A stretch of 64,000 nt of DNA, taken from positions 75,655 through 139,654 of the forward strand of contig JAFUHI010000001.1 of NCBI GenBank assembly GCA_017468925.1, written 5' to 3'. Each line of letters begins with the position of its first letter. Positions within the stretch are counted from its first letter, which is position 1. Source of the stretch: Bacilli bacterium (GTDB taxonomy: Bacteria > Bacillota_I > Bacilli_A > RFN20 > CAG-826). Under the pieces are notes generated by a model. It had not been told where the DNA came from and searched no databases. It was given only the letters and a program-made list of their open reading frames with translations. Position numbers and translations under genes: made by a program. Below, piece by piece: positions 54,901-60,624 of the stretch.

Positions 54901-56202
54901 TTAATCCTCATCCGCAGCGACTAATATATTTAAGTTATTTTTTATTGCGTATTGTGAAAGTTCTATCAGCGCATTTAGAAGTGTCGATGCTTCGCCTTCT
55001 AAATTGCGATTATTTTTATACCAAAGAAGATCGTCTAAAAATTCTTTTTTATCTTCAACTTTGTAAAAATTGTCTAGTCCGTGGCTAAAACTGCCGAAAT
55101 CGATATCGCAATATAATTTTGTTAAACCAACCAGATTATTATCCACTTGATGTGGTTTATCTATAATATCATCAACATAACATAAACACGTTCTGATGTA
55201 GTAATAACAATTGCTTTCGTTATCTTCCGCAGCAAAGAAATATCCTGGTTCGCCCTCAAAACCTTTATATAAATCTAATAATTTGGTATTCAAGAATAAT
55301 TTTGAATCTATGATTCTATTAAGCACATTAATGGCGTCTTCATACTCAACATTTTTTGTCAGTAATAGTTTTGTGACATTTTCATAATCCGATTTGAAAT
55401 AGCTCGATTCTATAATTTTCTTTAATGTTTCGTTAATATCGTATCCTTCTTTGGCGGATATACACCTGTCGTTACGTGTTCTATCTTTTCTAACAGATTT
55501 AATTAGCTCTTTTAAATTCGAATCATTTAAATCGATGATGCTAGTAATTTTGAATAAATCATATATATGACGAGAATTTCTTTCGCTTTCTTTTCTCTCG
55601 AAATAATCACAAATTGCAAACACTTTATCCACGAATGTTCTTTCCAATTTTTGGACGCTTATGCTAAATGGCAATAGATTAAATTCTTTTGCAGCGTCCT
55701 CATTGCCGTTTTCGATTAGCCAATCGCCTATGATTGAGTTTACCGGCCTAACTTCCTCTGGATAAGCTTTTTGATAGAAAGCCATTTCGACTTGCACGAA
55801 TGGTTTGACAGAAGAAGAGGAAAACGAAATTGGATATTCAATGTAATAGCGATTGAAACTTCCGTGCGAGTGCTTTATAACTTCATCCCTGTTGAGAATT
55901 TTAAAGCCGAGCCTGTCGCACACCTCAATGACCGTTTTATTTGCTTTGGTGTTGTGGCTTCTTCCAAAATGTTCGTTATTTAAACTTAGATCGATATCTT
56001 CGGAAAAACGATCGATTGCCTTATAAGCGTGGCTGCAGCACGTTCCGCCTTTGAATAACAACCCAGGTATCGCTTTATTCAATTCAGATAGAATGAGCAT
56101 TACGAAATAATCTTTCTCGATTAAAGCCTCGTTTATCTTATACGACCTCGAGGTTTCAACAATAGCATCCATGAAAGCCTCTTTATTTTTATATAATTCC
56201 AT
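54901..56202 (-). CDS. AbiEii-like nucleotidyltransferase toxin
   Basis: 433 residues. DNA polymerase beta-type nucleotidyltransferase of the AbiEii/AbiGii group, with FKGGTCCSHAY (GG-S-like motif), RFSEDIDLSL (DxD catalytic) and a downstream KLERTFVDKVFAI lysine motif; typical toxin-like fold plus a C-terminal extension of about 130 residues of unknown role. With the upstream antitoxin-like gene (14-base overlap) it forms a type IV toxin-antitoxin pair known from abortive phage infection. Target (tRNA or other) not predictable. Confidence 0.88.
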   Translation of the reverse strand: MELYKNKEAFMDAIVETSRSYKINEALIEKDYFVMLILSELNKAIPGLLFKGGTCCSHAYKAIDRFSEDIDLSLNNEHFGRSHNTKANKTVIEVCDRLGFKILNRDEVIKHSHGSFNRYYIEYPISFSSSSVKPFVQVEMAFYQKAYPEEVRPVNSIIGDWLIENGNEDAAKEFNLLPFSISVQKLERTFVDKVFAICDYFERKESERNSRHIYDLFKITSIIDLNDSNLKELIKSVRKDRTRNDRCISAKEGYDINETLKKIIESSYFKSDYENVTKLLLTKNVEYEDAINVLNRIIDSKLFLNTKLLDLYKGFEGEPGYFFAAEDNESNCYYYIRTCLCYVDDIIDKPHQVDNNLVGLTKLYCDIDFGSFSHGLDNFYKVEDKKEFLDDLLWYKNNRNLEGEASTLLNALIELSQYAIKNNLNILVAADED

Positions 56203-56812
56203 TTAAAACCTCACTTTCCACAAGATTCTTTAACGCTTGCGCCGGAAATCTCGTTGCTAATTTGATTAATGTTTTTGGGTCAATATTGTTGTCTTTTATG
56301 TATTGAATGATTCTTCTCTTAGCAAAATCATTCAATTGAGGATTGATGCCAAGATCTAAAAATAGCTGGATTATCGTGTAGTATCTGTAATTTTCTTTTG
56401 TTATCTCAAATCTAGATTTTCTTACAATAAATTTTATCCCATCGATGCTTACGACTCTTTTTCTTGTGGCCTCATTATTGGTGACTATCTCTAATACATT
56501 AGGAACTTGAGAAGTGATGCCGAATTGATTTAGTAACGCTAAACCGGAATAAACACCATACACTGTTTCACCATTGGTAACATATTTATTGTTGGCAACC
56601 ATCGAAGAAGTCATGGTTGCTTTTCCAAAAAAAGTTTTCTTCGGAAGGCAATATACACCTCTGGAGAATTTAATAATGTCTCCTTTTTCTTCGGCTTGTT
56701 TCAAGAGTCTGAAAATATATGCTTTGGTGAATTCCGGAAATAAAGAAATGATGTCTTCTGTATAGACAGGTCCGCCTGGTTTAAAGTTTTCTTTGACTCT
56801 AGAAACAAACAT
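56189..56812 (-). CDS. AbiEi-like antitoxin with winged helix
   Basis: 207 residues. N-terminal winged-helix DNA-binding domain (AYIFRLLKQAEEKGDIIKFSRGVYCLP) and a C-terminal antitoxin-type domain containing VYGVYSGLALLNQFGITSQVPN, the usual AbiEi layout. AbiEi autoregulates the operon and neutralises AbiEii in characterised systems. The promoter carries a perfect TAGTATACTA palindrome at the -10. A GGAAGGA ribosome binding site precedes the ATG. Confidence 0.85.
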   Translation of the reverse strand: MFVSRVKENFKPGGPVYTEDIISLFPEFTKAYIFRLLKQAEEKGDIIKFSRGVYCLPKKTFFGKATMTSSMVANNKYVTNGETVYGVYSGLALLNQFGITSQVPNVLEIVTNNEATRKRVVSIDGIKFIVRKSRFEITKENYRYYTIIQLFLDLGINPQLNDFAKRRIIQYIKDNNIDPKTLIKLATRFPAQALKNLVESEVLNGII

Positions 56813-56863: not shown

Positions 56864-57132
56864 ACAAATTAATTGAATAAAGATTGGCTTGTTTAAGGCC
56901 AGAACTTCTCAATAAGAAAAAAATTTACCTTTATCTAATAATATTAACTTATAAATATATCTATAGATATTCCCGGTATTAATATTATTAATAAAGGTAA
57001 CTTTAGTGGGTCTATTGACTCATCTTTTTTCTTATGGAAATATGGTTATCGAAGGTCTATAAAAAATGAAATTATAAGCGAAAAGAATTGTTGGAAGTAA
57101 ACGGAATAGAAGAAAAGGAGGGCGATTAGACA
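56864..57132. other. intergenic region upstream of the phosphoesterase cassette
   Basis: Apart from the inverted repeat it contains a TTGACT (57015-57020) without a matching good -10, and the ribosome binding site AGGAGGG just before 57133. No protein-coding frame is visible. Confidence 0.6.
56911..57035. repeat. long nested inverted repeat between divergent operons
   Basis: Inner arms of 23 and 22 bases, 56925-56947 and 56979-57000, pair except for one extra base; the 31-base loop contains the perfect palindrome ATATCTATAGATAT (56957-56970). Outer arms ATAAGAAAAAA (56912-56922) and TTTTTTCTTAT (57025-57035) also match. A GGGTC/GACTC hairpin with a T-run lies at 57008-57030. Confidence 0.8.
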
Positions 57133-57768
57133 ATGAACAAAAAAGAAACCATTATAAAAATAAACGGAGAGCATAATTTCTTCTTGTTTCAAGATATTGT
57201 TTATTATTTCGGATTGACGCTCAAATTTGAATGGCGTTTTCCAATTGTTAGCAAATATAAAGATAAGGAAAAGAGAAGCAAATGTGCTTCAGAATTCATT
57301 TATGACTCTTGGTATGACTTATTCATTGAAAAACTAATGACGTGTCCGCGCACAGATTACTGCCGAAAGCTTATTGATGGATTTAAAGATTGGATGATCA
57401 CCACTAATATTGCTATTACTACCGCACAAGTCGGAAGAAAAGAAGAAGGCATTCCGAGTTGGGAACTAGACTCGTTAACAAAAAATAAGCCATCCTTTCT
57501 TATTGAACACAGTGATGATTTTGAAATATACACAGTCCATTTTAATGAAGAAATTGAAGTGTTATTTAACGAAGCTATTTACTTTTATCACACCATTGAA
57601 AATAGTTTTAACCCCAACTCTTTTTTAGCTTTATTAAGACGGTATTTCATCATCGAAGAAGAATATCTATCTAAAGAGATATCGGTTATTTGTGAAAGTT
57701 TTGAAGGCAAAAAAGAATTCTTTATGGGAAAAGCGATATATGAAATAGTGGAGGATAACAGACAATGA
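57133..57768 (+). CDS. protein of unknown function, partner of metallophosphoesterase
   Basis: 211 residues. I recognise no family. It begins with a short basic strand-like segment (KKETIIKINGEHNFFLF), has aromatic-rich stretches (YYFGLTLKFEWRFP, IYDSWYDLFIEKLM), contains two widely spaced cysteines around CPRTDYC, and ends acidic. No signal peptide or membrane helix. Strong AGGAGGG ribosome binding site. It overlaps the next gene by 4 bases (ATGA), so the two are translated together and are likely to act together. Confidence 0.8.
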   Translation: MNKKETIIKINGEHNFFLFQDIVYYFGLTLKFEWRFPIVSKYKDKEKRSKCASEFIYDSWYDLFIEKLMTCPRTDYCRKLIDGFKDWMITTNIAITTAQVGRKEEGIPSWELDSLTKNKPSFLIEHSDDFEIYTVHFNEEIEVLFNEAIYFYHTIENSFNPNSFLALLRRYFIIEEEYLSKEISVICESFEGKKEFFMGKAIYEIVEDNRQ

Positions 57769-59165
57769 TTTATATAACTGGTGATACACACGGAAATATT
57801 GATTTCGCAAAACTAAAGAAATATTTTTCAAATAGGTACGTTACTAAAAAAGATTACCTGATTATTTTAGGTGACGCTGGGATGGTGTGGAGTGAAGAAG
57901 ATTGTTATATTTGGGATTATGCCATGCTTGGTTTAACCGTGTTATTTATCGATGGAAATCATGAAAATTTTGAATTGCTAAATAAATTTCCGATTGTGAC
58001 TTATAAAGGGGCGAAATGTCATAGGCTATATCACAATATTTACCACATCATGCGTGGCGAAATAATAAATATCAATGGCCTATCGTTCTTTTGCATGGGC
58101 GGCGCAACTTCGATTGATAAAGCCCAAAGACTAAATCGCATTTCTTGGTGGGAAGAAGAGAATATATCAAATAAAGACATTCTTAACGGCTTAAACAACC
58201 TCGATAAATATAATTATCGTGTTGATTACGTCTTAAGCCATGCCGCGCCTTCTTTTGTGGTAAGAAAGATGTTTAATTATCAAATGGATGGCAACACAGA
58301 GATATTGGCGAGATTCCAGTCTCAAATTGAATTTAAATATTGGTATTTTGGCCATTATCACGAAAACAAGAAATGGAGTAAATATCGCTGTTTCTATGGT
58401 GATATTTTAGAAATACCTGCGATAGATAAAGGGAAAAAGAAAATCAATTTCCCATATTTATATTCGGATGATGATGGATATTTGCACAATAGAAAAACAC
58501 TTCGACGATTAAACGCCAAAGTGGAAGATTTGCCTGAATGGTATTATGAGGGCTATAAAGGTTATTATTATTCTTTAAAAGACGTTAGCGATGTCGCTTT
58601 CCGTCGCTCATTGACGGACAATCATTTAAATAAAGATGCAGTGGTTTATCTTCATTATCATGGCAAATTAAAAAAGAATAGATTTTACGAGCCACTAGAA
58701 AATGAAAGATGGGAAAAATGGGATGCCTCTACTTGGAGAGATTCTTGCAAAGATGTTTGCTTAGGCATTGAAAAATATTCCCCTCACCTTAATCTAGACA
58801 AACTAAAAGCGGCAATTAATCTTAATTACGATCACTACAATCAGTGTCATGAATTAATCGATTTTTCTTCCTATGATATTGTCGAAAGGCCTTTTGATGA
58901 TGTATTTACACCTCATTATGTTGACAAATATTCACTAGAAAAAGCGAAATACGTAGTCACTCGTGGAGATAGAGTTCTTTCTGAGTTTTTGAAATTTGAA
59001 TACGCGATGAAGTACGTATCTCTTTATATGTCTAATAAATTAAATATAAAAGTATGGACAGAAACCATCGGTGATGAGAAAACCCCATTTATCAGAGCGT
59101 TCGATACGGGCCATGACACTTCTGATTGGGTATATATCAAGGAAATAAAATATGACGAGAATTGA
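57765..59165 (+). CDS. calcineurin-like metallophosphoesterase with unknown C-terminal domain
   Basis: 466 residues. Residues 1 to about 220 hold a complete two-metal site: GDTHG (6-10), LGDAG (35-39), GNHE (64-67), SHAAP (158-162) and GHYH (196-199). The following 245 residues, aromatic- and Lys-rich (VYLHYHGKLKKNRFYE, WEKWDASTWRDSC), match no family I know. The N-terminal part resembles stand-alone phosphoesterases of gut Firmicutes; substrate may be a nucleotide, nucleic acid or protein. Translationally coupled to the 211-residue unknown gene. Confidence 0.85.
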   Translation: MIYITGDTHGNIDFAKLKKYFSNRYVTKKDYLIILGDAGMVWSEEDCYIWDYAMLGLTVLFIDGNHENFELLNKFPIVTYKGAKCHRLYHNIYHIMRGEIININGLSFFCMGGATSIDKAQRLNRISWWEEENISNKDILNGLNNLDKYNYRVDYVLSHAAPSFVVRKMFNYQMDGNTEILARFQSQIEFKYWYFGHYHENKKWSKYRCFYGDILEIPAIDKGKKKINFPYLYSDDDGYLHNRKTLRRLNAKVEDLPEWYYEGYKGYYYSLKDVSDVAFRRSLTDNHLNKDAVVYLHYHGKLKKNRFYEPLENERWEKWDASTWRDSCKDVCLGIEKYSPHLNLDKLKAAINLNYDHYNQCHELIDFSSYDIVERPFDDVFTPHYVDKYSLEKAKYVVTRGDRVLSEFLKFEYAMKYVSLYMSNKLNIKVWTETIGDEKTPFIRAFDTGHDTSDWVYIKEIKYDEN

Positions 59166-59190: not shown

Positions 59191-59217
59191 TGAATAATAA
59201 AAATATGGGTGATAAAT

Positions 59218-60624
59218 ATGAGCAAATTGAATGATTTAATTAAAGAATGCTTAGGCTATGAAGATGAACTTGAATGGGTAGAATTCAAGGCGAATATTTT
59301 TAATATTGATGAAGTTGGCGAATATATTTCCGCATTGTCCAATAGCGCTGCTATTTTAGGAAAGCCAAACGCCTATATGATTTGGGGAATAGAAAATGAT
59401 ACTCACAAAATTATCGGCACAAACATTAATTACAACAAAGAGATTAACAATGAACCCATTCAACATTATTTGGCAAGAAAATTATCACCAAGCCTCGCTT
59501 TCTATTTTGATGAAACAAAATATGAAGATAAAAGAGTAGTGGTGTTGACTATTCCTGCTGCCAAAATCGTCCCTACCGATTATCAAGGTGTTAGATATAT
59601 TAGAATCGGCTCAAGCAAAGAGAATCTAAAAAAATATCCAGAAAGAGAAGCTTTTTTGTTCTCAATTTTAACATTCGGTTTGCCAACCATTAATAATAAA
59701 GCTTCCGAATACCAAGATTTAACTTTTAATCAACTGTTTACATATTATTCATCTAAAGGAATTGAATTGAACAAGAACAATTTCAAAACAAATCTCCACT
59801 TGCTTACTGACGATGGCAAATACAACATTATGGCGCAGCTTCTATCGGATAATTCTCATGTGCCAATTAGGGTGGCTATTTTCGATGGCAAAACCAAAGC
59901 CAGCAAAATGTATTCGGTTAAAGAATTCGGTTATAAATGTCTGTTGAATTCTTTATATGAAGTTCTAAATTACGGGGAAATATTGAATATCCCTCAGGCC
60001 GACGAAGAAGGTCGAATCATGGAAAGAAAAGAGGTCATGCTCTTTAATTATGATGCCTATAGAGAAGCCGTCATTAATGCGTTCGTCCACAATAAATGGG
60101 TTGATTTAAACGAACCAATGATCACCGTTTATAACGATAGGATAGAAATACTATCAAGAGGCGAATTAGCCCCTCTTCAAACTTTAAATGGGTTCTACAA
60201 AGGGCATTCAATTCCTGTTAATGAAAAATTGTCAGAAATGTTCTTGCAACTTCATATCAGTGAGAAAACTGGAAGAGGCATTCCAACTATTATATCGATA
60301 TATGGTGCTGACGTAATCGACATTTCGGATGGAACGATTGTTGTAACAATCCCATTCAATAGAATCAACCAGGTGGGTGATAAAGTGGGTAATAAAGTGG
60401 GTAATAAAGTGGGTAATAAAGTGGGTAATAAATCACTTAATAATTCTGAAATTAAAGTGTTGGCAGAAATTAGAAATAACCCAAATATCACTAAAGCCGA
60501 ATTGATAATCAAATGCGATTTGGGAAAAACTTCAGTTGATAATATCATCTCATTTTTAAAGAAACATGGGTTTATCGAAAGGGTCGGTTCTAAAAAGACA
60601 GGTTATTGGAAAGTTAATCAATAA
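59218..60624 (+). CDS. AlbA_2 (Schlafen-like) domain transcriptional regulator
   Basis: 468 residues. N-terminal AlbA_2 putative DNA/RNA-binding domain (EWVEFKANIFN ... SNSAAILGKPNAYMIWGIEN ... GVRYIRIGSSKENLKKYP), an ATPase-like C-terminal half of the AAA_4/HATPase-like group (AVINAFVHNKW ... NDRIEILSRGELAP), a linker of five V-G-(D/N)-K units (residues 386-405, encoded by 60373-60432), then a winged helix (SEIKVLAEIRNNPNITKAELI). Repeats of this type are known in the family. ATG 59218 is preferred to a GTG three codons earlier because it follows GGGTGAT. Role: regulator or defence-associated factor; uncertain. Confidence 0.85.
   Translation: MSKLNDLIKECLGYEDELEWVEFKANIFNIDEVGEYISALSNSAAILGKPNAYMIWGIENDTHKIIGTNINYNKEINNEPIQHYLARKLSPSLAFYFDETKYEDKRVVVLTIPAAKIVPTDYQGVRYIRIGSSKENLKKYPEREAFLFSILTFGLPTINNKASEYQDLTFNQLFTYYSSKGIELNKNNFKTNLHLLTDDGKYNIMAQLLSDNSHVPIRVAIFDGKTKASKMYSVKEFGYKCLLNSLYEVLNYGEILNIPQADEEGRIMERKEVMLFNYDAYREAVINAFVHNKWVDLNEPMITVYNDRIEILSRGELAPLQTLNGFYKGHSIPVNEKLSEMFLQLHISEKTGRGIPTIISIYGADVIDISDGTIVVTIPFNRINQVGDKVGNKVGNKVGNKVGNKSLNNSEIKVLAEIRNNPNITKAELIIKCDLGKTSVDNIISFLKKHGFIERVGSKKTGYWKVNQ
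60373..60432 (+). repeat. 12-base tandem repeat, five copies, coding
   Basis: GTGGGTGATAAA followed by four copies of GTGGGTAATAAA, encoding V-G-D-K and then V-G-N-K units. In-frame copy-number change would alter linker length without a frameshift. Confidence 0.9.

Follow-up and report, generated by a model that had tools for sequence, protein, structure and literature searches.

A Dbr1-like metallophosphoesterase fused to a mobile-element domain and paired with a partner gene in a low-GC island of a Bacilli bacterium

Dbr1, the RNA lariat debranching enzyme of eukaryotes, has been described as the sole known enzyme that selectively opens 2'-5' RNA branches (PMC10470207). Structurally, it contains an invariant Cys14 in the alpha metal pocket, a lariat recognition loop of 28 residues, which an invariant Arg stabilises, and a four-helix C-terminal domain that packs on this loop (PMC4176325). 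Mycobacteriophage D29 gp66, a member of the same superfamily, was reported as a 2',3'-cyclic nucleotide phosphodiesterase in a work referenced in PMC12287305, and the phosphoesterases of cluster A mycobacteriophages (A10ZJ24 gp48/Bxb1 gp47) belong to phrog_221, as judged from Bxb1 gp47 and D29 gp54.

The cassette described here was analysed in a stretch of 64,000 nucleotides from a Bacilli bacterium (the window), in which the following features were located:

54901..56202, minus strand: AbiEii toxin, in the same low-GC island as the cassette (PF08843, E 2.5e-23; PADLOC AbiEii, E 1.9e-73)
56189..56812, minus strand: AbiEi antitoxin (PADLOC AbiEi, E 5.4e-49)
56921..57004, no strand assigned: 84-bp imperfect palindrome upstream of the cassette, a putative member of the system
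57006..57023, plus strand: terminator-like hairpin with a T run (3 such in the region vs 1.3 expected)
57133..57768, plus strand: partner gene PART, 211 aa (ORF with ribosome-binding site)
57765..59165, plus strand: MPE1::CTD fusion gene, 466 aa (ORF, PF00149, AlphaFold2 model)
57765..58415, plus strand: Dbr1-like two-metal phosphoesterase domain (MPE1), aa 1-217 (PF00149, phrog_1649, Dbr1 profile match, VIA)
58512..58919, plus strand: core of the C-terminal half (CTD), aa ~250-385, with the DLPEWY...NHxxKD motif (homology to stand-alone proteins of clostridial elements)
58920..59162, plus strand: C-terminal alpha/beta subdomain, aa 386-466 (seen in the Bacilli fusions L058, L059 and L095)
59209..60624, plus strand: SLFN AlbA_2/RecG-C type regulator (PF04326, E 7e-17; GC 0.34, like the island)

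The two cassette genes lie on the plus strand, share 4 bp (ATGA) and are each preceded by a GGAGG-type ribosome-binding site, in agreement with an earlier note on this DNA, which had proposed a two-gene unit placed between a toxin-antitoxin pair (AbiEii/AbiEi on one side) and an AlbA_2 regulator (SLFN AlbA_2 on the other). The same note attributed to the cassette a structured upstream region of its own. The palindrome and hairpin do exist (56921-57023, MFE -45.4 kcal/mol, z -2.3), but the element is unique in its own genome and has neither a copy in 36 congeners nor a counterpart inverted repeat 5' of two related cassettes; the claim is thus borne out in part only, and a conserved RNA structure upstream is not supported. 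A scan of 54.3-61.0 kb for RNA elements returned none above the Rfam threshold. Within the neighbouring SLFN AlbA_2 gene, a 12-bp tandem repeat at 60361-60432 (GTGGGTAATAAA) is translated into VGNK repeats, which lie in the linker that precedes the winged helix.

The N-terminal part of the enzyme belongs to the calcineurin-like metallophosphoesterase superfamily, based on the match to Pfam Metallophos PF00149 over residues 2-200 (E 5.6e-12) and on the motifs D-x-H, GD, GNHE, H and GHxH. The eight metal and catalytic residues (D7, H9, D37, N65, H66, H159, H197 and H199) are all present, as the earlier note had claimed, and are conserved in an alignment of 21 relatives. Its expectation that the enzyme should be active is probably right for the window copy but does not extend to the whole group, as in a close relative (L095) the active site is gone although the remainder has been retained. 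The AlphaFold2 model of the 466-aa protein has a mean pLDDT of 88.6 and a pTM of 0.77. In PHROGs the enzyme is assigned to phrog_1649 (E 6.8e-34), and MPE1 is a predicted phosphoesterase family widespread in bacteria and phages: homologues were found in 20 of 193 genomes of the host's relatives, mostly as stand-alone proteins of ~220 aa, in 283 phage records, and in plasmids and mobile elements. The stand-alone copies of the host family are 46-50% identical to window residues 1-217, and in three loci (L008, L010 and L013) stand-alone MPE1 adjoins the ordinary genes folD/secG, a setting that counts against a conflict role. Both these gut-Bacilli proteins and the PHROG 1649 phage phosphoesterases are homologous to the window enzyme along the whole of residues 1-217 and differ from it in having neither a fused CTD nor a partner. 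In the viral library, a homologue from a phage already carries the name "RNA lariat debranching enzyme". The PADLOC candidate PDC-S10, a metallophosphoesterase, shows weak similarity across the domain (E 4.7e-5 for the window enzyme, 4e-8 for a relative), with a low score of 20-31 bits, and this computational candidate lacks the CTD. No match to a characterised housekeeping phosphoesterase was found, an outcome in favour of the earlier note, which had named such a match as a refutation. The family is also separate from the mycobacteriophage proteins mentioned above, since its profile gave E > 100 against Bxb1 gp47 and D29 gp54, and D29 gp66 falls outside it (E 8.7).

Among solved structures, the phosphoesterase domain is most closely related, both in profile and in modelled fold, to Dbr1 (Entamoeba histolytica, PDB 4peg/5k73), and the enzyme belongs to a Dbr1-like branch. 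When the MPE1 profile (21 members) was compared with every PDB sequence, Dbr1 ranked first (E 1.4e-6, positions 2-214) and the second match covered ~55 residues only (E 0.0044). Foldseek with the AlphaFold model gave 1.3e-7 for Dbr1 vs 5.7e-5 for GpdQ, and VIA gave a Z of 16.6 with 24% identity, the next family, aq_1956, having a Z of 15.6 with 10% identity. The two enzymes have in common the two-metal fold, GNHE and GHxH, a loop where the lariat recognition loop sits and an extra domain after the phosphoesterase domain. In the window enzyme, however, the loop is shorter, though alignable, with near-invariant R122, W128 and E132 and low model confidence in this region; the C-terminal half is modelled as beta-rich, with strands plus two long helices, with no detectable relation to the four-helix domain of Dbr1; and the protein is bacterial, encoded in an island and accompanied by a partner gene. 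In addition, the position of the invariant Cys of Dbr1 is occupied by Asp7 in the window enzyme and by Asp in all 21 aligned relatives. The window enzyme is not a Dbr1 itself, and an Asp at this position, which most phosphoesterases share, gives no reason to assume specificity for debranching. A reverse transcriptase match is lacking in 12 of the 20 genomes with MPE1, and a general substrate in the form of intron lariats or msDNA can therefore be discarded. A link to reverse transcriptases through such substrates (8/20 genomes with MPE1 vs 28/173 without, P 0.016) was not counted as support; above the curated cut-off P was 0.05, and no physical linkage to MPE1 was visible.

Regarding the C-terminal half, residues ~225-466 had no match in Pfam, NCBIfam, PHROGs or PADLOC, residues 222-466 fell in no Pfam family and the CTD profile found no solved structure in the PDB; the structure search itself used the whole-enzyme model and its results were dominated by the phosphoesterase domain. 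The description of this half as a novel domain therefore holds as regards the profile libraries, but it is a fused copy of a mobile-element gene that normally lies beside MPE1. Its conserved core residues (DLPEWY and NHxxKD) led to separate proteins of ~150-250 aa, encoded near stand-alone MPE1 in clostridial serine-recombinase elements. In these elements (Oscillibacter L060; viral contigs L053, L056, L075, L076 and L078) the same two domains are encoded by genes that are adjacent or one to two genes apart, overlapping as MPE1-CTD in L053 and L060, and in five element types a ~210-aa protein, PARTC, is encoded between them. The order is MPE1-PARTC-CTD in L056, L057, L075, L076 and L078 (with one extra gene in L078) and CTD-MPE1-MPE2 in L061, where MPE2 denotes a second phosphoesterase, and L052, L054 and L066 carry CTD copies with no MPE1 in the fetched stretch. 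These elements differ from the window cassette in having two genes instead of one, a different C-terminal tail and a PARTC with no detectable relation to PART. Within the family of the host itself, CTD genes that stand alone adjoin AbiE (L092) or MPE2 (L094). As the CTD recurs as a separate gene beside MPE1, the window gene is a natural fusion of two functionally linked genes.

The MPE1::CTD fusion was found in five genomes (window, L002/L058, L004, L059 and L095); a first survey gave two full-length relatives (L002/L058 and L004), and L059 and L095 were added later. The last ~80 residues (aa 386-466), which match no family, were seen in fused Bacilli forms. No match was obtained when viral_contigs was scanned with the 466-aa sequence alone. 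Two side observations concern the mobile relatives: PARTC is a family in its own right (DDYSAAAFTSFG...FCNDIFGDG) that occurs near MPE1/CTD in clostridial recombinase elements (L056, L057, L060, L072, L075, L076 and L078) and fits no Pfam or PHROG family above the cut-off, and a DUF7695 zinc-type protein is encoded immediately 3' of the stand-alone CTD genes of the host family (L092:6295-6711 and L094:5537-5914).

The partner, PART, likewise had no match in Pfam, NCBIfam, PHROGs or PADLOC, so that the placing of both proteins outside known families by the earlier note was borne out for these libraries; its structure model (pLDDT 41) was too poor for use. Conservation of the pairing across genomes, a check which that note had proposed, was observed, as a homologous partner lies upstream of MPE1::CTD in four of the five fused loci. 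The ortholog in L095 is located two genes upstream of the fusion (37% identity, E 4e-31). With a profile of the window and L095 partners, the gene upstream of the L058 fusion, which overlaps the enzyme gene as in the window, ranked first of 583 ORFs (E 1.3e-4), and hhalign of the PART profile with the L058 and L059 partners gave E 3.7e-5 over 166 columns; in L059 the contig starts within the partner gene. In the fifth locus (L004) the upstream gene encodes an unrelated-looking protein of 342 aa ending in a DUF1016_N domain, and profile comparison gave no support for homology with PART. No PART was found apart from the fusion among 279 genomes of the order, and none in viral_contigs or in plasmids. 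Comparisons by hhalign showed no relation of PART to PARTC, PARTB or the upstream gene of L049, the last being an MPE2-type phosphoesterase by its sequence motifs. Other gene associations were noted in these cassettes: L097:5333-8927 comprises three genes, namely a 342-aa gene ending in DUF1016_N, MPE1::CTD and the gene of another phosphoesterase (phrog_547), which bears its own extra domain of ~240 aa and of no recognised kind, and a gene starting MSRD, recognised by eye (RFGK...RLLY...YEF.D..G.P.G), is located between partner and enzyme in L095 (L095:6730-7341) and after MPE2 in L059 (L059:3588-4163).

L095 is the nearest relative of the window cassette both by CTD (52% identity vs 44% for L058) and by partner. 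Its phosphoesterase domain is shorter by 34 positions and lacks seven of the eight catalytic residues. Of 25 further conserved positions, 14 were kept, the 429-codon frame is intact and CTD and partner were retained; the excess of loss at catalytic sites is statistically modest (P 0.04). Catalysis thus appears to be dispensable in at least one member, and the retention of CTD and partner by a dead copy suggests, short of proof, that selection acts separately on their putative binding function.

The cassette is located in an island of low GC: values of 0.32-0.34 were calculated for AbiEii, AbiEi, the cassette and the SLFN gene vs 0.38-0.43 for the flanks. In five congeners the island genes are absent from the corresponding locus, where an ABC exporter pair comes after dUTPase with no more than one small gene (in one congener, a 482-aa gene) between them. 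Outside the window the contig continues with HsdM, HsdS, HsdR, a PDC-S31 gene, a GIY-YIG/Schlafen helicase, a MazG-like gene and an AbiH-like fragment. This large low-GC defence island just past the window (L122:15290-20000 and L123; ~68035-91800 on the window scale) was noted separately, including that PDC-S31 is DUF2971, that the AbiH-like fragment has an HTH and that a 1100-aa zinc-finger protein shows a weak Metallophos match. Within 2 kb of 23 MPE1/CTD loci in 21 genomes, AbiEii was found five times (0.11 expected) and the YhcG nuclease five times (0.10 expected), counts that come from six genera, with three YhcG loci in one genus, and whose P values ignore shared ancestry. YhcG (DUF1016) is the PADLOC phage-defence candidate PDC-S02. 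This co-location, together with the type I restriction-modification genes downstream, indicates enrichment in defence islands and strengthens the defence hypothesis of the earlier note, although the role itself is still a putative one. MPE2 genes also occur near MPE1/CTD (L004, L011, L059, L061, L094 and the clostridial elements) and belong to phrog_547, the family of D29 gp66.

The two genes overlap, their pairing recurs, the enzyme is a fusion of MPE1 and CTD and the setting is a low-GC island. Our preferred interpretation, held tentatively and at somewhat less than an even chance, is that of a horizontally acquired mobile conflict cassette of the defence type, the enzyme being an RNA- or nucleotide-directed phosphodiesterase. 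It would depend on Mn, Zn or Fe and might act on 2'-linked bonds (2'-5' or 2',3'-cyclic), with the CTD recognising the substrate or target and PART binding the enzyme to restrain or trigger it; upon attack by a phage or element, RNA or a nucleotide signal would be cut or processed by this complex. A bolder form, in which a bacterial Dbr1 relative, joined to a domain of mobile elements and served by a partner of its own, represents a new defence class that cuts or edits 2'-linked RNA or nucleotides, some members being non-catalytic, is decidedly unlikely. A toxin-antitoxin pair maintained by addiction, in which PART restrains a toxic nuclease MPE1::CTD or the reverse, would agree with the small upstream gene overlapping the enzyme gene in the window and L058 (a layout not specific to such systems), with a fast-evolving PART found only with the fusion and with the AbiE neighbours. 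We consider it unlikely: retention of the partner in L095 despite the lost active site would be odd if the partner merely neutralised catalysis, and the clostridial elements have MPE1-CTD pairs without PART.

The presence of MPE1 relatives in phages and mobile elements would fit an enzyme that degrades cyclic or 2'-linked signals, or RNA, produced by host defences. Calcineurin-like phage phosphodiesterases were predicted to counter nucleotide signals (PMC7824862), and a phage phosphoesterase lets its phage evade host immunity (PMC12287305). The latter enzyme, however, is one of the cluster A phages, and its homologues in D29 and Bxb1 (phrog_221) gave no match to the MPE1 profile; the window copy, for its part, lies on the chromosome, amid defence genes and not in a phage or conjugative module, so that such a counter-defence role is improbable here. 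The gp66-type MPE2 neighbours, and the 2',3'-cyclic ends left by toxin RNases (PMC9503650), would suit a unit that heals toxin-cut RNA with MPE1 and, in some loci, MPE2, but the inspected loci showed no recognisable RNA ligase or kinase and the window cassette has no MPE2, which leaves this function highly improbable. It is barely credible that the cassette encodes a directionality or regulatory factor of serine recombinases like Bxb1 gp47, in spite of the recombinases adjoining CTD and MPE1 genes in the clostridial elements and of the parallel between the inactive L095 copy and the reported inactivity of Bxb1 gp47 (PMC12287305): no serine recombinase was recognised among the genes near the window cassette, and as a main explanation it was ruled out by family, Bxb1 gp47 being phrog_221.

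With respect to novelty, the superfamily is known and the phage family is partly annotated, while the architecture of the fusion, the families CTD and PART, the affinity to Dbr1 with Asp for Cys and the dead variant appear undescribed in the literature searched: no account of any of these was found, in a coverage that excludes most subscription journals. CTD and PART add two protein families absent from Pfam and PHROGs. The nearest structural relatives of Dbr1 would be a family widespread in bacteria and phages, located in defence islands and combined, by fusion or as a neighbouring gene, with a mobile-element domain that appears undescribed. Through it, the chemistry of 2'-linked RNA or nucleotides in conflicts between phage and host may become accessible to concrete tests. 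Even if its function turned out to be ordinary, the cassette would still be a clear case of a gene fusion exposing a functional link.
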